The notes under the pieces: generated by a model
What the model was told of the DNA's origin: nothing
Seen by the model: the letters and a program-made list of their open reading frames with translations, nothing else
Databases searched by the model: none
Shown here: in pieces, positions 5,548 to 26,740 of the stretch
Layout: each line of letters begins with the position of its first letter
How positions within the stretch are numbered: position 1 is the stretch's first letter
Assembly (NCBI RefSeq): GCF_000744815.1
Contig: NZ_JQMQ01000005.1
Span: 1,930,055-1,994,054, forward strand
DNA from: Phaeacidiphilus oryzae TH49
GTDB lineage: Bacteria > Actinomycetota > Actinomycetes > Streptomycetales > Streptomycetaceae
Reading direction: 5' to 3'
DNA length: 64,000 nucleotides
Translations under genes and position numbers: made by a program

Positions 5548-6477
5548 CTACAGGGACGCGACCTGGGGGCGGACGCGCTCGGCGATCAGCGCGAGGTGGT
5601 CCAGGTCCGAGAGGTCGAGGATCTGGAGGTAGACCCGCTCGGAGCCGGCCGCCGCGTACTCGGCCAGCTTCGCGGCGGCCTCGTCCGGCGTGCCGGCGAC
5701 CCCGTTCTGCTTCAGCTCGTCGACCTCGCGGCCGATCGCCGCCGCCCGGCGGGCCACCTCCGCGTCGTCCTTGCCCACGCAGGCGATCAGCGCGTTGGAG
5801 TAGACGAGCTCGTCCCCCGACCGCCCGGTCGCCTCCGTGGCCGCCCGCACCCGGCCGAACTGCTCGCGGGTGGCGTCCACCGACTGGAACGGCATGTTGA
5901 ACTCCGTCGCGTACTTCGCCGCCAGCGCAGGGGTCCGCTGGGCGCCGTTGCCGCCGATCAGCACCGGGATCCGGTCCTGCACCGGCTTCGGCAGCCCCGG
6001 AGAGTCCTTGAGGGTGTAGTAGGTGCCCTCGAAATCGAAGGTCTCGCCGAGCTTGCTCTGCCACAGCCCGGTGATGATCGCCAGTTGCTCCTCCAGCCGC
6101 CCGAACTTGGCCTTGGGGAACGGAATCCCATACGCCGTGTGCTCGTCCCCGTACCAGCCGGCGCCGATGCCCAGCTCCACCCGGCCGCCGGACATCTGGT
6201 CCACCTGGGCGACCTGGATCGCCAGGACGCCCGGGTAGCGGAAGGTCGCCGAGGTCATCAGCGTGCCGAGGCGGATCCGGGAGGTCTCCCGGGCCAGGCC
6301 GGCCAGCGTGGTCCAGGCGTCGGTCGGGCCCGGGAGCCCGGAGACGTCGCCCATCTTCAGGTAGTGGTCGGAGCGGAAGAACGCCCCGTAGTCCAGGTCC
6401 TCGGCGGCCTTGGCCACCGCCAGCAGCGTGTCGTAGCTCGCCCCCTGCTGGGGCTCGGTGAAGATGCGCAGATCCAT
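5548..6477 (-). CDS. LLM-class F420-dependent oxidoreductase
   Basis: A 309-residue TIM-barrel flavin/F420 enzyme of the luciferase-like monooxygenase class. It opens MDLRIFTEPQQGASYDTLLA and has the barrel strands RIRLGTLMTSATFRYPGVLA (cofactor side) and RVELGIGAGWYGDEHTAYGI, with IPVLIGGNGAQRTP in the middle, all typical of F420-dependent members. The ATG at 6477 is preferred because AGGATGG lies 5-7 nt upstream; an ATG three codons earlier is possible. It diverges from a small gene at 6702. No substrate can be assigned. Confidence 0.85.
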   Translation of the reverse strand: MDLRIFTEPQQGASYDTLLAVAKAAEDLDYGAFFRSDHYLKMGDVSGLPGPTDAWTTLAGLARETSRIRLGTLMTSATFRYPGVLAIQVAQVDQMSGGRVELGIGAGWYGDEHTAYGIPFPKAKFGRLEEQLAIITGLWQSKLGETFDFEGTYYTLKDSPGLPKPVQDRIPVLIGGNGAQRTPALAAKYATEFNMPFQSVDATREQFGRVRAATEATGRSGDELVYSNALIACVGKDDAEVARRAAAIGREVDELKQNGVAGTPDEAAAKLAEYAAAGSERVYLQILDLSDLDHLALIAERVRPQVASL

Positions 6478-19022: not shown

Positions 19023-20054
19023 TCAGCCGCCGCTCGTCCCCGCCACCCCCGGGGATGGCGCCCGGCCCGAGGCGTTCCGGGAGATGGCCGGGGCCCGGAT
19101 CGGTTCCGCGGTGTGGGCGTACTTGGCGATCTTCGCGACGACGAACAGCCGCTGGGTGTCCTGGGCCGCTCCGGCCAGGCAGGCCCAGCAGACCAGCAGC
19201 AGGACGGCGAAGGCGGCCAACGGCGCACGGTGCGGGCGCGGCGCCGGTGCGAGCAGTGCGCGTACCCGGCGCAGGACCGGGCCCCCGTCGGCGGTCATGA
19301 CGGCAGCGGGGCCGCGTCCCGCACCGACACCGCAGCCGGTCCCGGCCTGCTTTCGAGCCACCGCGGCTCGGGCCACGGCCCGCGCGGTGACCCCGCGGTC
19401 CCCGACGTGCTCGGCCGCATCCTCGTCCGCCCAGCGTTCCAGGACGAAGGCACCCTCCCGGGCCAGCGGCAGCAGCAGCGGGCAGGCGGTCGCGGCCAGT
19501 TGGACCGCGAGCAGGAACAGGAAGTGGCGGTGATGCAGGTGGGAACGCTCATGGGCGAGCAGGGCCCGGCGCTCGTCCTCGTTCAGCGCGGAGAGCATTC
19601 CGGTGGAGACGACCATCCGGCCCGGGAATCCGGCCAGCGTGAACGCCTCCAGCCGGGCGTCGTCGATCACCGTCAACTCACCGCCCCCGGGCAGCCGGCG
19701 GCACTCGCGATAAGCCGCGAGCAGCGACCGCGCCCGCCACCAGGCGGCCACCGAGACGGCCAGCACCGTGAGCGCCAGCAGGACGACGCCGGCATCCGCC
19801 ACCACGGCACCGATCGGGTCCGCGGCCCGTAGTGCCCGCGCCGACCAGTGTCCGAGCACGGCGATGGCGTGCAGCCGCCCGAAGCCGTTCACGGCCAGCA
19901 GCGTCAACGCGCCCACCCAGCCGCCGGCGGCGACCGGTCCGGCGCAGCCGAGCGTCCAGGCCGCGGCCCTTGGCATCATCCGCCGCGCCAGCGGCGCCGC
20001 TACCAGGCCGAGCACGACCGAGGTGGCCAGCGGGACGTAGACGGCGAGCAGCAC
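19023..20054 (-). CDS. M56-family (BlaR1-like) membrane metalloprotease
   Basis: A 343-residue membrane protease with about three N-terminal helices, then the zinc motif HERSH (168-172) in LLAHERSHLHHRHFLFLL, the conserved ERWADEDAAEHVGDR, and a C-terminal helix (AFAVLLLVCWACLAG). It lacks the penicillin-binding sensor domain of true BlaR1. In this family, activation of the protease leads to loss of the partner BlaI repressor. The start is a GTG 3 nt after the stop of the BlaI-like gene, so translation is probably coupled. The signal it senses is unknown. Confidence 0.9.
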   Translation of the reverse strand: MLLAVYVPLATSVVLGLVAAPLARRMMPRAAAWTLGCAGPVAAGGWVGALTLLAVNGFGRLHAIAVLGHWSARALRAADPIGAVVADAGVVLLALTVLAVSVAAWWRARSLLAAYRECRRLPGGGELTVIDDARLEAFTLAGFPGRMVVSTGMLSALNEDERRALLAHERSHLHHRHFLFLLAVQLAATACPLLLPLAREGAFVLERWADEDAAEHVGDRGVTARAVARAAVARKQAGTGCGVGAGRGPAAVMTADGGPVLRRVRALLAPAPRPHRAPLAAFAVLLLVCWACLAGAAQDTQRLFVVAKIAKYAHTAEPIRAPAISRNASGRAPSPGVAGTSGG

Positions 20055-20057
20055 CTG

Positions 20058-20447
20058 TCAGGCCCTCTTCGGAGGGTCGGGGTGCCGCAGCAGCTCCTGG
20101 AGGACCTGCTCGTCCTCATCGCTGAGCCCGGAGACGAACCGGCTGAGTACCGCCCGGCGGTCCGAGCCCTGCTCCAGCAGTTGGTACATCCCCTCGGCCA
20201 TCTGCGTCGCCTCGTCCCGCACCGGGGCGTAGGCGTGGCCGCGGCCGGCCTTCTGCCGGGTCAGCTGCCCCTTCTCCAGCAGGCGGGAGAGGATGGTCAG
20301 CACGGTCGTGTGGGCGAGCCGACCGGGCAGCCGTTCCAGGACCTGAGCCGCCGTCAAGGGGCTGTCCGCGGCCCACAGCACCGCCATCACCTGGCCTTCG
20401 AGCTCTCCCGCCGCCCGGCGGCCCGCCGGTCGCCCAGTCCCGCCCAT
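20058..20447 (-). CDS. BlaI/MecI/CopY-family transcriptional repressor
   Basis: A 129-residue winged-helix repressor. The recognition helix region LAHTTVLTILSRLLEKGQLT and wing KAGRGHAYAP are characteristic. The C-terminal part (SRFVSGLSDEDEQVLQELL) is the dimer domain. It is coupled to the M56 protease gene. The ATG at 20447 has GGGTGG 6 nt ahead; a GTG at 20456 is also possible. CTACA-N3-TGT(A/C)G operator-like sites upstream of this gene and its neighbours suggest that it controls itself and an adjacent group of membrane genes. Confidence 0.9.
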   Translation of the reverse strand: MGGTGRPAGRRAAGELEGQVMAVLWAADSPLTAAQVLERLPGRLAHTTVLTILSRLLEKGQLTRQKAGRGHAYAPVRDEATQMAEGMYQLLEQGSDRRAVLSRFVSGLSDEDEQVLQELLRHPDPPKRA

Positions 20448-20509
20448 GTCTGCCACCCGTCCTGCCGACTCCGCTGCCGTTTCCCGCCCGAGGCGCCGCC
20501 CTGAAGCTA

Positions 20510-21556
20510 CTACACGCGTTCCCGACCCGGCCGCGGTCGCCGGAGACGGGAAATGGGAGATGGGCGAGGAAGTTCGCGGTCTGCCATCATCGCTCTACTA
20601 CAGGCTGTAGAATTCGGGACGCCCGGTCGCCAGGCCCCAGACGGCCCAGCCTCGAATTCCCCCGCCGGGCCGGACACGGGGCTCGGCGACCCGGATCGGC
20701 TCAGCAATCCGGGCCCAAGCGCGCGGCAGCCGGTCAGCGCGTACTGGACGGCGAAGCCGAGCATCGCGGTGAGGAGTCCGGCCAGGGCGTCGGCCTCGAA
20801 GTGGTTGGCGGTGGCCAGGATGACGACGCAGGTCGCCACCGGGTAGAGCAGGCCGAGGATGCGGACGAGTCGGCGCCGGGCCAGTCGGTACAGCACGATC
20901 CCGCACCAGGAGGACCAGGCGATGTGGATCGAGGGCATCGCCGCGTACTGGTTGGAGACGTCCGTGACCGGACCGGAGGCCCAGGAGCCCCACGTGTGAT
21001 GGACGACCACGGTGTCGATGAACCCGTCGGAGGACAGGAAGCGCGGTGGGGCCAGAGCGAAGGCGTAGAAGCCGACGAGGGCCAGCAGGGTGGCGGCGTA
21101 CAGGGCGGTGCGCGCGCCCCGGAAGGCGCCGGGGCGGTAGGTGTACAGCCATACCAGCAGGCCGATGACGACGACGAAGTGCAACACCGCGTAGTAGTAG
21201 TCCATACCGACGATAAGCCAGTCGACGCGGTCCACGGCATGGTTCAGGGCCAGTTCGAAGCTGATGTGCAGCTCCCGCTCGATCTCCAGCAGCCGCCTGG
21301 CACGGTGGAGGGCCGCGAGCCGGTGGTCCGGTACCGCGTTGCGGGTGAGGGTGTAGGCGGCGTAGCCGATGCCGATCAGCAGCAGTTCGGCCCACCAGCG
21401 CGGTCGCCCGACGCGAGGCCGCCGGAGGCGCGCGAGGAGCCGATCGGGTAGACCGGGTCGCGTGCGGGCTTCAGCCGGGGCGGAACCTTCACCCGCTTCC
21501 CTCGGCGTCCGGTGTGGTGTCGATGGGTGAGCCGGTTTCGGCCTGGTGCGTTCCAC
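20510..21556 (-). CDS. PAP2-like (PAP2_3) membrane phosphatase/transferase
   Basis: About 348 residues. Membrane segments alternate with the motifs AMPSIHIAWSSWCGIVLYRL and ANHFEADALAGLLTAMLG, the Ser-His and His-Asp sites of the PAP2_3 group. That group includes inositol-phosphate transferases and lipid phosphatases. The start is uncertain: I used the GTG at 21556 (VERTRPKP), with GAGGAAGG about 13 nt ahead. The last 70 residues are low-complexity and read straight through an operator-like palindrome at 20598, so the tail may be non-native. The 67-residue membrane protein gene precedes it closely. Confidence 0.75.
   Translation of the reverse strand: MERTRPKPAHPSTPHRTPREAGEGSAPAEARTRPGLPDRLLARLRRPRVGRPRWWAELLLIGIGYAAYTLTRNAVPDHRLAALHRARRLLEIERELHISFELALNHAVDRVDWLIVGMDYYYAVLHFVVVIGLLVWLYTYRPGAFRGARTALYAATLLALVGFYAFALAPPRFLSSDGFIDTVVVHHTWGSWASGPVTDVSNQYAAMPSIHIAWSSWCGIVLYRLARRRLVRILGLLYPVATCVVILATANHFEADALAGLLTAMLGFAVQYALTGCRALGPGLLSRSGSPSPVSGPAGEFEAGPSGAWRPGVPNSTACSRAMMADRELPRPSPISRLRRPRPGRERV
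20598..20610. promoter_or_regulatory. operator-like palindrome upstream of the blaI-like gene
   Basis: CTACAGGCTGTAG is a perfect 5-3-5 inverted repeat, extended as CTACTACAGGCTGTAGAA. It is the best copy of the CTACA-N3-TGT(A/C)G motif seen three times in this island and matches the TACA/TGTA half-sites typical of BlaI-family operators. It lies 150 nt before the repressor gene, inside the reading-frame tail of the PAP2 gene. A further half-site, CTACTACA, is at 20507-20514. Confidence 0.65.
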
Positions 21557-21594
21557 CGCGAGCGGCGTTCCTTCCTCGGTCGAGTGCGGCCATG

Positions 21595-21798
21595 TCAGAA
21601 GAGATGCCCGGTGACCCAGGCCGCGAGGCAGGTGAACGCCGCCGGCGCGGACAGGCACAGCAGGGCGAAGCTGGCGTCGGGGCCGAGGCCCCTGCGCAGT
21701 GCCGGGCTGGCCACCAGACCGGCGAAGAGCAGCGCCATCAGGAAGAGCAGGGCGATAGCGCCGTGATAGGTGATCGAGTACCCCGGCCCCTGCGGCAT
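21595..21798 (-). CDS. two-helix small membrane protein
   Basis: A 67-residue protein. After the short N-terminus MPQGPGYSITYHG come two hydrophobic segments, AIALLFLMALLFAGLVASPA and FALLCLSAPAAFTCLAAWV, with a polar loop between. GAGGGGGAG is 2-3 nt before the ATG. It is the first gene after an operator-like site and lies about 40 nt before the PAP2-like gene on the same strand, so the two probably form one transcript. The family is not recognised. Confidence 0.7.
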   Translation of the reverse strand: MPQGPGYSITYHGAIALLFLMALLFAGLVASPALRRGLGPDASFALLCLSAPAAFTCLAAWVTGHLF

Positions 21799-21835
21799 GG
21801 CTCCCCCTCGGCCCGGGCCGAACACCCGGTTGCTC

Positions 21836-21848
21836 CTACAAGCTGTCG
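21836..21848. promoter_or_regulatory. operator-like site before the small membrane protein-PAP2 operon
   Basis: CTACAAGCTGTCG repeats the CTACA-N3-TGT(A/C)G pattern with one arm mismatch. It lies 38 nt upstream of the small membrane protein start and just after the MFS stop, where a repressor would block a promoter serving the two-gene operon. Confidence 0.6.
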
Positions 21849-21860
21849 GATGTCGGTACT

Positions 21861-23306
21861 CTACCCGTTGCGTCGACGGCCTTGTGGCAGCGCGGTGAGG
21901 ACGGCGACGAGCGAAACCGCCAGCAGCACGAGGACGGCGACGCGATCCGCAGCCGAGCCCTGGCCCGCCAGGTGCAGGGCCAGGGTCACGGCAGCCACGC
22001 CGAGCGCGGTGCCCAGGCCGCGGGCCATGTTGACCAGCCCTCCCCCGGTGCCCGCCGATGCGGCCGGGACGGCGCTCATCACCAGGGTGTTGTTGGCCGG
22101 GGTGAAGACCCCCAGTGCGATTCCCAGCAGGGCGAGCAGCACGGGCAGTACAGTCGGCGTCGCCGGCAGCGCGGCCATCAGCGCCAGCGCCGCCGCACAG
22201 CCCAGCGCCCCGGCCCAGGCCCGCCTGCGGTCGTCCCAACGGGTCGGCAGCGCCCGGTCGCCGAGCGTGGCGGCGAGCGCGAACCCGAACGGCAGCGCGG
22301 TCAGCACCGCGCCGGAGACCAGCACCGGCAGGTGCAGCCGGTCGAACTCGACGGGTACCAGCACCAGCGGCCCGAAGAGCACCAGGTAGCCGCAGAGGGC
22401 GCCCAGCAGTCCCGAACCGATCCGCTCGGCCGCGAGCAGTCGCAGGTCCACCATCGGCCGGCGAAGCCGTAGTTGGCGGCGCACGAACAGCGCTCCGGCC
22501 GCGACCGCCACCGCGGCGAGCGCGCCGATCGACCAGTCGGGCAACCGCAACCCGGAGGCCGCGGAGAGGGCGAGCAGCCCCGCGGTGGTGGCCCCACCGA
22601 GCAACAGCACCCCGGCGGGGTCGGTGCGCGCCCCCTCGGCGCGGTGCCGGGTGCGGGGAAGCAGGTAGTGGCCGGCGACCATGGCGACGATGCCGACGGG
22701 CACGTTGATCCCGAAGACCCAGCGCCAGCCGACCGTGGCCACCAGCACGCCACCGACGGTGGGCCCCAGCGCGAGGCCGATGGCCTGGCCGGCGGCCTGC
22801 ATCCCCAGCGCCCCACGCATCCGTTCGCGCGGAGCGCTGGTGGTCACCAGAGCCACGCTGTTGGCCTGCAGCAGGGCGGCGCCGACCGCCTGCAGCACCC
22901 GGAAGGCGATCAGCGCCACCAGTCCCGGCGCGAGCCCGCACGCGGCGGACGCGGCGGTGAACAGCGCGAAACCGTACAGGTACATCAGCTTGCGGCCACG
23001 GGCGTCGGAGAACCGGCCGACCGGCACCAGCAGTGCGACGAGGGTCAGGAGGTAGGAGAGCGAGACCCACTGCACGGCGGCGAGCGGCGCGTGGAACTCA
23101 GCACCGAGCGCCGGGTAGGTCAGGGTGACGATGCTGGCGTCCAGTTGCCCCATGAAGGCGCCGAAGCAGACCGTCAGGACGGCCAGCCTCCAGGCGTCGG
23201 GCCGCCTGCGTATCCGCTCCGGGCGCGCCCGCTCCGAGGCGAGCAGCCGCCAGGGGCGGGAGGTTCGGTCGGAGTGGGGAGTGGTGGGCGGATCGCCGAT
23301 GCCCAT
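21861..23306 (-). CDS. MFS multidrug exporter, DHA2 (EmrB/QacA) type
   Basis: A 481-residue exporter with about 14 membrane helices. Helix 1 carries FMGQLDASIVTLTYPALGAE. Motif A is GRFSDARGRKLMY after helix 2, and the antiporter motif C is GPTVGGVLVATVGWRWVFGI, typical of proton-driven drug efflux. The ATG at 23306 has GGGAGG 6 nt ahead. A long palindrome lies about 60 nt upstream. It probably exports an amphiphilic drug, possibly as part of an envelope-stress response shared with the BlaI-like pair. Confidence 0.88.
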   Translation of the reverse strand: MGIGDPPTTPHSDRTSRPWRLLASERARPERIRRRPDAWRLAVLTVCFGAFMGQLDASIVTLTYPALGAEFHAPLAAVQWVSLSYLLTLVALLVPVGRFSDARGRKLMYLYGFALFTAASAACGLAPGLVALIAFRVLQAVGAALLQANSVALVTTSAPRERMRGALGMQAAGQAIGLALGPTVGGVLVATVGWRWVFGINVPVGIVAMVAGHYLLPRTRHRAEGARTDPAGVLLLGGATTAGLLALSAASGLRLPDWSIGALAAVAVAAGALFVRRQLRLRRPMVDLRLLAAERIGSGLLGALCGYLVLFGPLVLVPVEFDRLHLPVLVSGAVLTALPFGFALAATLGDRALPTRWDDRRRAWAGALGCAAALALMAALPATPTVLPVLLALLGIALGVFTPANNTLVMSAVPAASAGTGGGLVNMARGLGTALGVAAVTLALHLAGQGSAADRVAVLVLLAVSLVAVLTALPQGRRRNG

Positions 23307-23943
23307 ACGCGCCTCCCGGTCTGCGCGGACGCGTGCCCGGTTCCGGGCCGGCCCTCCCTGCCATGGTATGTCGGACTACGACATAATCGGAAGGGGAGGT
23401 ATTCGGTCTCCGCTCCATCGGCCCGAGGCACGAAGCGCTCCACATGACGCAGCGTCTGCGGCCAGAACCTTGGCCTTGGTAGTGGCCCGCATGGTCCAGT
23501 ACGACCCGCGCCGCGGAGATCCCGGCCAGACTCGCGGCCACCAGCACCACGGCCGCGGTGGCCACGGCGGCCGGATTGCCGGCAAAACCCCCGGGTCCCC
23601 GCACGGCAGCCCGGCGAACGGCTTCCCAGCGCCCGCAGGCGGCGATCGCCAGCCAGCCCGCCAGGAGCAGGCAGGCCACCGCGAGCAGCAGCCGCAGCTC
23701 CGGAAGCGGGAGCCTCGGCAGTGCCCCCAGGGCCGTCCCGGCCGCGATCAGCGCCAGGCAGGTGCGTAGCCAGGCGAGGAAGGTCCGCTCCGCGGCGAGC
23801 ACATCGCGTCGCCCCCAACCGCCCCCGGCTCCGCATGCGGCCGGCGCGTCCAGCCGCTCGCCCGCTCTCCTCTCGGGCCGCTCCCGGCCCGCTGCGGAAT
23901 CGGTGCTATGTGTACGCACTGCCTCGTCCGCACGAGTGGACAC
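23098..23943 (-). CDS. DUF202 (YidH-like) membrane protein with run-on C-terminus
   Basis: 281 residues by the open frame, but only the first 150 look real. RRDVLAAERTFLAWLRTCLA is the DUF202 signature. Three helices follow, ending in ATAAVVLVAASLAGISAARV. The usual family length is 110-140 residues. The rest is Arg/Gly-rich, crosses the MFS promoter palindrome and overlaps the MFS start by 209 nt, so a lost stop or a frameshift is likely. The GTG at 23943 has GGAGGG 6 nt upstream. The function of DUF202 is unknown; its position suggests co-regulation with the MFS gene. Confidence 0.65.
   Translation of the reverse strand: MSTRADEAVRTHSTDSAAGRERPERRAGERLDAPAACGAGGGWGRRDVLAAERTFLAWLRTCLALIAAGTALGALPRLPLPELRLLLAVACLLLAGWLAIAACGRWEAVRRAAVRGPGGFAGNPAAVATAAVVLVAASLAGISAARVVLDHAGHYQGQGSGRRRCVMWSASCLGPMERRPNTSPSDYVVVRHTMAGRAGPEPGTRPRRPGGAYGHRRSAHHSPLRPNLPPLAAARLGAGAPGADTQAARRLEAGRPDGLLRRLHGATGRQHRHPDLPGARC
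23367..23385. promoter_or_regulatory. palindrome upstream of the MFS exporter gene
   Basis: TATGTCG (23367-23373) and CGACATA (23379-23385) are perfect 7-bp arms around GACTA. The arms use the same TGTCG/CGACA half-sites as the local CTACA-N3-TGTCG motif but in the opposite order. The site is 60 nt before the MFS start, a usual repressor position. Confidence 0.55.
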
Positions 23944-24160
23944 TTCGCACCCTCCGTCACCTGGTCCGCACCCGGCCGACTCTCAGCGGACGGGGGCCCG
24001 CCATCGCGTCGCCCCCCGCCGCGCCGTTACCGTGGAACAAAGCAGCAGCCTAGGAGCCCGGGGGCGGTGGCTTCGCCAAGACCGCTCCGCTTGGCCGCCT
24101 TCTTACTCCGGGCGGGGCGCGCCTCTCATGCACACGCGCTCGCCGATATCGAGCGCGCCG

Positions 24161-24182
24161 GTTCATCCGATGTTCATCAAAC
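24161..24182 (+). promoter_or_regulatory. PHO-box-like direct repeat before the PHS transporter gene
   Basis: GTTCATCCGAT and GTTCATCAAAC are adjacent 11-nt units sharing GTTCATC, the arrangement of PhoP direct-repeat units in streptomycetes. Another GTTCACC heptamer is at 24230-24236. The repeat lies 160 nt upstream of a PHS-type phosphate transporter, which fits induction by PhoP under phosphate limitation. Confidence 0.6.
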
Positions 24183-24235
24183 GTTGGATCAGCATTCGCG
24201 ACGGCATCCCCGGCCGGTCGATCACGCGCGTTCAC

Positions 24236-24248
24236 CTACATGTTGTCG
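24236..24248. promoter_or_regulatory. operator-like site before the PHS transporter gene
   Basis: CTACATGTTGTCG is the third copy of CTACA-N3-TGT(A/C)G. It overlaps the end of a GTTCACC heptamer and sits 96 nt before the transporter start. A BlaI-type repressor could block here what PhoP activates; that is inference. Confidence 0.55.
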
Positions 24249-24343
24249 GACTTCCCCGGGCCATCGTGCGAGTCCGCGATCCGGAGAACGTCCGGCACGG
24301 GGAACCAGGACCACCACAGCAAGCGACAGGGAGCTCCCGCCTC

Positions 24344-25801
24344 ATGGCTGACAGCACCCCCGCGGGGATCACCGCGGCACTGGACGAAGCGCCTCTGAGC
24401 CGGTTCCACACCCGGGCGGTCATCACCGCCGGGATGGGCTTCTTCACCGACGCGTACGACCTGTTCATCGTCGGCACGGCAAGCACCCTCATCGCCGCGC
24501 AGTGGCATCTGAGCACGAGCCAGACCGGCCTGGTGAACTCGATGACGCTGCTGGCCGCTTTCATCGGCGCCTTCGTCTTCGGCCGGATCGCCGACCTGGC
24601 CGGCCGCAAGAAGGTCTACGGGCTGGAAGCCTCCCTGATGGTGGTCGGCGCCGTCGCATCGGCCTTCGCGCCCAACCTGGTATGGCTGCTGGTCTTCCGG
24701 TTCATCCTCGGTATCGGTGTCGGCGGCGACTACCCGGTCTCGGCGGTGCTGATGAGCGAGTACGCCAACCGCCGCGACCGCGGCAAACTGGTCGGCCTGG
24801 TCTTCTCCATGCAGGCGCTGGGCACGGTGGCCGGCTACATAGCCGGTCTCGTACTGCTCTCCACCGGGATGAGCCACGACCTGACCTGGCGACTGCTGCT
24901 CGGCCTCGGCGCCGTCCCCGCGGCCTGCGTGATCTACCTGCGGCACAAGATGCCCGAGTCCCCGCGCTACACCGAGCGCGTCCGCGGCGACAGTCGAGGC
25001 GCCGCCGCCAACCTCAACCGCTACGCCGACGGCGCGGTCCACGCCTCCGCCGGCCGGGCCCCCGGCACCGCCGCCCCGGCCGGTGAGACCCGCAGCAGGC
25101 TGCGCGGCCTGCGCACCCTCTTCGCCGACCGGCGCAACCTGAAGATGCTGATCGGTACCGCGGGGACCTGGTTCGTCTTCGACTACGCCTACTACGGCAA
25201 CTCCGTCTCCGCCCCCTTGATCGTCAAGAGTGTGCTGGGCGGCGGGAACCACCCGACCACCCAGGTACTCGCGCTGAATCTGATCGTGTTCAGCATCGCC
25301 GCGATCCCCGGCTACTACCTGGCCACCGCCTTCATGGACCGGATCGGGCACCGCAGGCTGCAGCTGATCGGCTTCGCCTGCATGGGTCTCGCCTTCCTGC
25401 TCATCGGTGTCATCCCCGGGATCACCACCATGGTGGTGCCATTCCTGCTGCTCTTCGGCCTCAGCTACTTCTTCGCCGAGTTCGGCCCCAACACCACCAC
25501 GTTCGTGCTCTCCGCGGAATGCTTCCCCACCAGCATCCGCAGCACCGCGCACGGCATCTCCTCCGGCGTGGCCAAGATCGGCGCCTTCATCGGCGTCTTC
25601 CTCTTCCCGGTCATCCAGAAGGCCCTCGGCACCGCCGGCGCCCTGGAGCTGTCGGCCGGCTTCGCCCTGGTCGGCATCCTGCTGACGCTGCTCATCCCCG
25701 AGACCTCCCAGCGCAGCCTGGACGAGGTGTCCGAGGAACAGCGGGTCGTCGCCGAAGCCGAGCGGATCGCTGTCGGAGCGGCAGCGGCCGAACCGAGATG
25801 A
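24344..25801 (+). CDS. PHS-family phosphate:H+ symporter (MFS)
   Basis: A 485-residue MFS transporter of the PHS/sugar-porter type. AGMGFFTDAYDLFIVG in helix 1 carries the Asp expected in phosphate:proton symporters. GRIADLAGRKKVYG is motif A, and GIGVGGDYPVSAVLMSEYAN and ECFPTSIRSTAHGISSGVAK are the second and fifth signature regions. Twelve helices are evident with a central loop. GGGAG lies 11 nt before the ATG. PHO-box-like repeats upstream support phosphate as the substrate. A 15-bp hairpin ends the unit. Confidence 0.85.
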   Translation: MADSTPAGITAALDEAPLSRFHTRAVITAGMGFFTDAYDLFIVGTASTLIAAQWHLSTSQTGLVNSMTLLAAFIGAFVFGRIADLAGRKKVYGLEASLMVVGAVASAFAPNLVWLLVFRFILGIGVGGDYPVSAVLMSEYANRRDRGKLVGLVFSMQALGTVAGYIAGLVLLSTGMSHDLTWRLLLGLGAVPAACVIYLRHKMPESPRYTERVRGDSRGAAANLNRYADGAVHASAGRAPGTAAPAGETRSRLRGLRTLFADRRNLKMLIGTAGTWFVFDYAYYGNSVSAPLIVKSVLGGGNHPTTQVLALNLIVFSIAAIPGYYLATAFMDRIGHRRLQLIGFACMGLAFLLIGVIPGITTMVVPFLLLFGLSYFFAEFGPNTTTFVLSAECFPTSIRSTAHGISSGVAKIGAFIGVFLFPVIQKALGTAGALELSAGFALVGILLTLLIPETSQRSLDEVSEEQRVVAEAERIAVGAAAAEPR

Positions 25802-26173: not shown

Positions 26174-26740
26174 GTGGGTGGGAGCGCGGCTTCGGAGGTT
26201 GAGGGCGCGGGGCGCCGGTGGCTGATGCTGGTGTACAAGGTGCCGGCGGAACCGACCCGGCTGCGGGCCGGGGTGTGGCGGAAGATCAAGGGCCTGGGCG
26301 CGATCTATCTGCAGAACTCGGCGGCCGCCCTGCCGCACAGCGCGGCCGCCGAACGTGCGTTGCGGGTACTGCGCAACGAGATCGTGGAGATGGGCGGCAG
26401 CGGCTATCTGATGGAGTCCCGGGTGCTCGCCGGGCACTCCGACATAGAGCAGGCCTTCAACGCCGCCCGGGACGACGAGTACGAGGAGATCGTCGACCGC
26501 TGCGAGGACTTCCTGAAGCAGATCGACAAGGAGTACCGGGCCGAGCACTTCACCTACGCCGAACTGGAGGAGAACGACGAGGATCTGGCGAAGCTGCGCA
26601 ACTGGTTCGCCAAGGTGGAGGCGCGCGACGTGCTGGGCGCCGGCGGCAGGGACGCGGCGGTCTCCGCGCTCCAGCGCTGCGCCGAGACCCTCGACGGCTA
26701 CGCGGCGCGGGTGTACGCGGAGGAGGGGGAGGGCCGCTGA
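26174..26740 (+). CDS. ChrB N-terminal domain protein
   Basis: A 188-residue protein. WLMLVYKVPAEPTRLRAGVW, then KIKGLGAIYLQNSAAALPHS, is the opening of the ChrB N-terminal domain, a regulator-like module linked to chromate resistance. The C-terminal half is helical and charged, with EIVDRCEDFLKQIDKEYRAE and LRNWFAKVEARDVLGAG. The transporter ChrA is not nearby, and the C-terminal part of full-length ChrB is absent. The GTG at 26174 has GGAGGGG about 13 nt ahead; an ATG at 26224 is the alternative. A chromate role is only a family-name guess. Confidence 0.7.
   Translation: MGGSAASEVEGAGRRWLMLVYKVPAEPTRLRAGVWRKIKGLGAIYLQNSAAALPHSAAAERALRVLRNEIVEMGGSGYLMESRVLAGHSDIEQAFNAARDDEYEEIVDRCEDFLKQIDKEYRAEHFTYAELEENDEDLAKLRNWFAKVEARDVLGAGGRDAAVSALQRCAETLDGYAARVYAEEGEGR

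Follow-up and report, generated by a model that had tools for sequence, protein, structure and literature searches.

Mycobacterial orthologues of the membrane protease BlaR lack a sensor domain (PMC5473688), and the BlaI regulon of Mycobacterium tuberculosis is wider than the beta-lactamase (PMC5473688, PMC12565901). What stimulates such sensorless BlaR-BlaI pairs is an open question for that species (PMC5473688). A pair of this kind is encoded in a 64,000-nucleotide stretch of the genome of Phaeacidiphilus oryzae TH49, called the window below, and it shares with the BlaI/MecI-BlaR1/MecR1 systems and with CopY both the repressor family and the TACA/TGTA type of dyad (PMC7253601). The initial annotation of the window had placed four genes or units under this repressor: blaI itself, a PAP2 operon, a major facilitator superfamily (MFS) exporter and a phosphate transporter. 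The present analysis supports the operator type, the PAP2 operon as a plausible target, the sensorless protease and the envelope theme of that proposal; the exporter fell away and the transporter is uncertain.

The account that emerges is a probable one: BlaI would read a CTACA-N3-TGTAG dyad with the outer bases CTACTACA on one side and repress its own unit and the PAP2 unit, possibly also the transporter, and the protease would relieve this repression upon disturbance of the membrane or envelope. Comparison with relatives shows the operator, its co-occurrence with this type of BlaI, its place before blaI and, in those relatives, the classes of target gene.

The predicted operator and its repressor type

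The argument starts from the following features.

20058..20456, minus strand: BlaI-type repressor, 132 amino acids (Pfam Penicillinase_R, E 1.8e-24, profile positions 2-114 of 115).
19023..20054, minus strand: membrane metalloprotease of BlaR type, 343 amino acids, with an HERSH motif (Pfam Peptidase_M48, E 3.8e-12, the sole match at E 0.001).
20595..20610, plus strand: predicted operator CTACTACA-GGC-TGTAG of blaI, with the 13-mer core lying 142 bp upstream of the BlaI start (20456); the sole CTACTACA-N3-TGTAG in the genome.
20507..20514, plus strand: half-site CTACTACA, lying before blaI at a distance of about 50-58 bp.

A search with the window BlaI protein (E 1e-15) gave matches in 187 of 200 genomes of the family. 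The 16-mer CTACTACA-N3-TGTAG occurs in 38 of the 200, spread over 11 of 17 genera, and its distribution follows the repressor type: it is present in 38 of the 45 genomes with a BlaI match of at least 118 bits and in none of the other 155 (Fisher P 3.7e-34, a value that overstates independence because the genomes are related). The 118-bit threshold was set after the data were seen; the outcome is similar over thresholds of 115-130 bits (32/37 vs 6/163 at 130 bits, 35/40 vs 3/160 at 125, 37/44 vs 1/156 at 120 and 38/50 vs 0/150 at 115), and the BlaI matches were complete down to the scores used. A control pattern written backwards is equally abundant, with 69 matches in 55 genomes compared with 67 places for the 16-mer, and shows no such association (8 of 45 genomes with this BlaI vs 47 of 155, P 0.13). 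Abundance by itself is therefore uninformative, and the argument is carried by the association and by the neighbouring genes.

In the surroundings of the 40 strongest BlaI matches outside the own genome (58-72% identity; 624,871 bp, three loci being short at contig ends), the dyad CTACA-Nk-TGTAG was counted for spacers of 0-12 bases. Spacer 3 gave 43 sites in 31 loci, spacer 4 gave 13 sites in 12 loci, spacer 12 a single site and every other spacer none; in the same loci, reversed half-sites gave one site in all and a control dyad 0-3 sites per spacer. The two-base spacing described for CopY and quoted for BlaI/MecI was thus absent from the 40 loci, and the spacing in the window is three. This profile, together with the co-occurrence of repressor and site, backs the earlier suggestion that the 13-mer is the operator type of the neighbouring BlaI.

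Sites close to blaI recur as well. One-mismatch N3 sites lie about 40-72 bp before the inferred blaI start in 7 of the 40 loci, 4 of which also have a farther site, an arrangement that appears comparable with the half-site at 20507. The scan upstream of blaI also gave 16 loci at a spacer of 6, which is interpreted as the outer repeat of CTACTACA. Among another set of eight BlaI loci, three from metagenome-assembled actinomycetes (L017, L018 and L019) have an N3 site in this near place; L013 has an N4 site, and the other four show no site of either spacing.

For the 66 sites of the 16-mer outside the own genome (one overlapping pair counted twice, and several sites sharing a gene), the best reading frame on each side was taken with a home-made caller, and the proteins were clustered by blastp and each cluster named by one representative. 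A glycosyltransferase with an MGDG_synth domain flanks 31 of these sites, in 29 loci. BlaI follows with 13, DedA/VTT with 7, PAP2 with 6, and PAP2_3, FA_desaturase_2, GT87, a TarS-like GT2 and a 224-residue family without a name with 3 each; polysaccharide deacetylase flanks 2 sites, a class A penicillin-binding protein, Lgt and MMPL one each, and 9 sites have no listed family. In the four largest clusters every member checked matches its representative with an E value no higher than 1e-10, and for the glycosyltransferases no higher than 1e-127. Below the model cut-offs of NCBIfam, the glycosyltransferase resembles diglucosyl-diacylglycerol synthase and one DedA protein resembles UptA. The family names suggest membrane-lipid and lipid-carrier metabolism as the common theme, and hence an envelope-lipid regulon; the view of the initial annotation that successive membrane genes are the targets fits these neighbours, which are mostly envelope genes.

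Besides the relatedness of the genomes, several results weigh against this reading. Seven of the 45 genomes with this BlaI type lack the 16-mer, and no site could be recognised in the 16 kb of L056, whose BlaI is the most similar by identity. Just 15 of the 40 loci have an exact N3 site within 320 bp upstream of blaI, a number that rises to 21 when one mismatch is allowed; in other loci the N3 sites adjoin other genes of the locus. The homologue of the flanking glycosyltransferase in the own genome (49%) has no site and was rejected as a target. To these points are added, below, those that concern the variant sites of the window.

Variant sites and candidate targets in the window

Read from high to low coordinates, the minus strand of this locus in the host genome (7.8 Mb, 6 contigs) carries genes for a DUF202 protein, a DHA2-type MFS transporter, a 68-residue membrane protein, a PAP2_3 protein, the BlaI-type repressor and the membrane metalloprotease; a phosphate-symporter-like gene lies on the plus strand. 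The features that bear on the extent of regulation are these.

21836..21848, plus strand: candidate variant operator CTACA-AGC-TGTCG, 37 bp upstream of the start of the small membrane protein (21799).
24236..24248, plus strand: candidate variant operator CTACA-TGT-TGTCG, 95 bp upstream of the transporter start (24344).
21595..21799, minus strand: small membrane protein, 68 amino acids, no family match in Pfam and NCBIfam searches.
20510..21658, minus strand: PAP2_3 family protein (Pfam PAP2_3, E 5.9e-48).
24344..25801, plus strand: phosphate:H+ symporter-like MFS transporter (TIGR00887, E 1.9e-105; its 353.6 bits fall short of the 610.3 cut-off).
21861..23306, minus strand: DHA2-type MFS transporter (MFS_1, E 9.1e-49; TIGR00711, 178.4 bits, below the cut-off of 230.2).
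23367..23385, no strand assigned: palindrome TATGTCGGACTACGACATA upstream of the MFS gene, a 19-bp TAT(A/G)TC dyad.

All sequences listed by the initial annotation are present in the window at the positions it gave. Its three 13-mers of the form CTACA-N3-TGT(A/C)G are CTACAGGCTGTAG (20598-20610), CTACAAGCTGTCG (21836-21848) and CTACATGTTGTCG (24236-24248). The first is the core of the operator at 20595-20610, a TACA/TGTA dyad upstream of the repressor's own gene as in the BlaI/MecI family, and sits inside the PAP2 reading frame (20510-21658), at its 3' end. That frame carries between 20510 and 20750 a C-terminal tail which by eye is absent from the L066 homologue and which covers the blaI operator; a stop codon may have been lost.

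The case for the 13-mers of the window rests on clustering. One of the three is palindromic and counts on both strands, so that the window has 4 strand-wise matches; shuffled sequence gives 0.02 on average, and none of 100 shuffles reached 4. Over the whole genome the pattern matches 9 times when each strand is counted, at 7 distinct places, and 3.65 kb of the window takes in 3 of these places; the backwards pattern matches 31 times on the same count. The 13-mer is accordingly rare and clustered, not abundant. For 3 of 7 uniformly placed sites to lie within 3,651 bp, simulation gives P = 2.6e-5, a figure to be read with the knowledge that the pattern was picked by the initial annotation after the sites were seen. 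Of the remaining four places, three are apparently within coding frames and one is intergenic (C5:2856078, CTACAGACTGTAG; L005:1501-1513), flanked by a typA-like gene and one for a solute-binding lipoprotein, as named from the reading frames by eye. The latter place (ACTACAGACTGTAGT) is the sole other one in the genome within two mismatches of CTACTACA-N3-TGTAGTAG. Identical 19-mers, CTACGACACCATGCAGTAC, were also seen at C5:4986082 and C5:4986865, 783 bp apart, suggesting a repeated module.

The variant sites themselves are weak, and from this the strongest alternative takes its force. It holds that just the blaI-protease unit is regulated here and that the TGTCG sites are relics or chance matches, with no multi-gene local regulon; it is judged unlikely, although with an appreciable share of the probability. 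By matrix score the operator at 20595 (29.8) is a full member of the training range of 25.6-47.2, while the sites at 21836 (13.3) and 24236 (10.1) fall far below it and do not stand out from unrelated matches in the window at 6007 (13.8) and 21182 (10.3); the 625 kb of family loci contain 28 matches scoring 10-14, some of them weak strands of strong sites. CTACA-N3-TGTCG is absent from the 40 family loci. Close homologues of the transporter are found in 4 of the 200 genomes, the own one included; the roughly 4.3 kb covered in each of the three others contain no 13-mer and no place with a matrix score of at least 7. If the TGTCG form is taken alone, the chance that any 2 of its 5 genomic places lie within 2,413 bp is P = 0.006, which is small but not vanishing.

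Three observations speak against relics or chance. Two of the five genomic CTACA-N3-TGTCG places adjoin the blaI operator, within 3,651 bp of it (P 5.5e-6 simulated, 8.7e-6 analytic), and both are near start codons. In the metagenome-assembled L019 the TGTCG form CTACACCATGTCG stands just upstream of its own blaI. PAP2_3 genes adjacent to blaI have exact sites upstream in L053, L061 and L066, and in L073 behind an lgt-type gene. On these grounds the TGTCG sites are kept as candidate operators, the exact sites in relatives backing the one at PAP2 and not the one at the transporter. The site at 21836 is a probable operator of the small membrane protein-PAP2 unit, and the PAP2 operon a plausible target, as first proposed. 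The site at 24236 is a possible operator of the transporter, for which the site itself is the sole support; the 13-mer fits the proposal that this gene is a target, and the lack of a site at the three other close homologues does not. A change in the recognition helix, LAHTT for LAYTT, was considered as the cause of the TGTCG variants and is not supported, since L079 combines LAHTT with an exact operator. Downstream of the transporter, at 26174-26740, lies a gene for a protein with a ChrB N-terminal domain.

That the MFS gene also belongs to the regulon, with blaI, PAP2 and the phosphate transporter all under BlaI as the initial annotation had it, is very improbable. The palindrome upstream of this gene does contain CGACA/TGTCG elements, taken at first for the half-sites of the 13-mer in reversed order, and L073 has an MFS homologue (69%) in the vicinity of blaI and PAP2. 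The motif is nevertheless a distinct one, and it is kept where this BlaI is missing. MFS homologues occur in 54 of the 200 genomes, and among 30 loci examined, own included, a TAT(A/G)TC half-site is found in the 190 bp around the MFS start in 26, against about 5% in shuffles; it is present at 7 of 10 loci with this BlaI and at 19 of 20 without, and in 25 of the 26 the best partner half-site forms a 19-bp dyad as in the window. The palindrome is probably the operator of another regulator and the MFS gene probably outside the BlaI regulon. No regulator gene was recognised beside 12 MFS loci among the listed frames, which were inspected by eye and not by domain search. A sigma-70-type promoter scan of 20400-24400, of little use in a GC-rich genome, gave no match at the operators and a single one at the MFS palindrome. 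The neighbouring DUF202 frame (23098-23943) shows no stop before it overlaps the MFS start, possibly reflecting a frameshift or an unusual end.

The blaI frame ends at 20058 and the protease frame starts at 20054. Among solved chains, BlaI matches at E 0.001 or better just 2g9w, which we take to be M. tuberculosis BlaI, and 1p6r. Its sequence contains no cysteine and so lacks the CXC metal motif of the CopY/CopR copper repressors, and it scores 38.7 bits with the CopY/CopR model TIGR02698, below the cut-off of 121.95 for that family. The protease has its HExxH motif at residue 168 and several hydrophobic stretches, the final one at 274-300 followed by 43 residues. Pfam assigns it to M48 alone, M56 being the earlier label, and NCBIfam gives no match. 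A C-terminal penicillin-binding (beta-lactam) sensor domain was not found by Pfam at E 0.001, in keeping with what had been noted initially.

In the proposed BlaI-controlled envelope regulon, for which we infer binding, repression, cleavage and the inducing signal, blaI and the sensorless metalloprotease gene would form a two-gene unit. BlaI would most likely repress this unit from the site at 20595-20610 and, most likely too, the unit of the small membrane protein and PAP2 from the variant site at 21836-21848; it may also repress the phosphate-transporter-like gene through 24236-24248. Disturbance of the membrane or envelope would activate the protease which, by analogy with BlaI-BlaR1, would cut or release BlaI. 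Opening of blaI, PAP2 and perhaps the transporter would then induce envelope-lipid functions.

Paralogous repressors and operator spacing

Three further BlaI-type genes are present in the genome. The two paralogues nearest to the window BlaI (53% and 50%) have CTACA-N4-TGTAG upstream (L010, around 1936; L011, around 1434), and one of them faces a gene that is DedA-like by its reading frame. That another BlaI paralogue of the genome binds the N3 sites is barely credible, its several BlaI-type genes notwithstanding, given the N4 sites of the two most similar ones and the confinement of the N3 16-mer to genomes with window-type BlaI.

The spacer-4 pattern is the more widespread of the two. The 17-mer CGTCTACA-N4-TGTAG occurs in 120 of the 200 genomes, its control in 5. 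Of the 187 genomes in which BlaI was matched at E 1e-15, 120 hold the 17-mer and 67 do not; none of the 13 others has it (P 3.6e-6). Among the 155 genomes without window-type BlaI, where the N3 16-mer never occurs, 81 hold the N4 17-mer. This longer N4 pattern is missing from the own genome, where both N4 sites have other outer bases. In single loci the neighbours of N4 sites include DedA-like and UppP-like frames, the UppP name resting on the reading frame.

These distributions suggest that operator spacing may separate paralogous BlaI systems. A broader and tentative proposal, to which somewhat less than an even chance is given, is that actinomycetes carry parallel BlaI-protease envelope switches insulated by spacing, CTACTACA-N3-TGTAG and the CGTCTACA-N4-TGTAG of the commoner paralogue, both acting on genes for membrane lipids and lipid carriers (glycolipid synthase, DedA, PAP2). 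If it is correct, sensorless BlaR-BlaI pairs would constitute a general lipid-homeostasis system and not a beta-lactam system, and they would show how a repressor family can be duplicated and its copies kept apart by a single base in the operator. Now that an operator is defined, target families are listed and spacers 3 and 4 can be contrasted, the question of what stimulates sensorless BlaR-BlaI pairs becomes testable.

Comparison with known systems

The initial annotation considered the combination of genes undescribed. A literature search on BlaI in Streptomyces and mycobacteria with glycolipid and DedA terms gave, among the matches listed, no glycolipid-DedA-PAP2 BlaI regulon and no spacer-3 and spacer-4 paralogues, which is weak evidence as most subscription papers lay outside the search. 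The gene combination may be new to that extent; the sensorless BlaR protease is not, being already known in mycobacteria (PMC5473688).

In contrast to the BlaI/MecI-BlaR1/MecR1 and CopY systems, the window pair shows neither a sensor domain nor a CXC metal motif. The CopY operator TACANNTGTA, quoted for BlaI/MecI too, has two bases between its half-sites, where the window type has three (PMC7253601). The BlaI_0696 and BlaI_1845 repressors of Clostridium thermocellum are alike in that BlaI is self-regulated and inverted repeats and paired sites occur, and differ in their half-sites, GTCTAT and GACTAT, and in their targets (PMC8457756).

On the side of the target genes, the HexSDF system of Clostridioides difficile offers a parallel: a glycolipid, and resistance to daptomycin and bacitracin, depend there on a monogalactosyldiacylglycerol-synthase-type enzyme and a polysaccharide deacetylase (PMC10128005). 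In relatives of the window genome, genes of both types are found next to N3 sites. HexSDF is controlled by a two-component system, not by BlaI (PMC10128005).

Analogous to the pair described here, M. tuberculosis BlaI-BlaR (Rv1846c-Rv1845c) combines BlaI with a BlaR-type membrane protease that lacks an external beta-lactam sensor. The BlaI operator of M. tuberculosis could be like the N3 dyad of the window, and the comparison rests on the targets: blaC, ATP synthase, cytochrome bd and ftsQ in M. tuberculosis, and genes of envelope-lipid type for the window repressor. Judged by its sequence features, the window system is a conserved variant of BlaI regulation.

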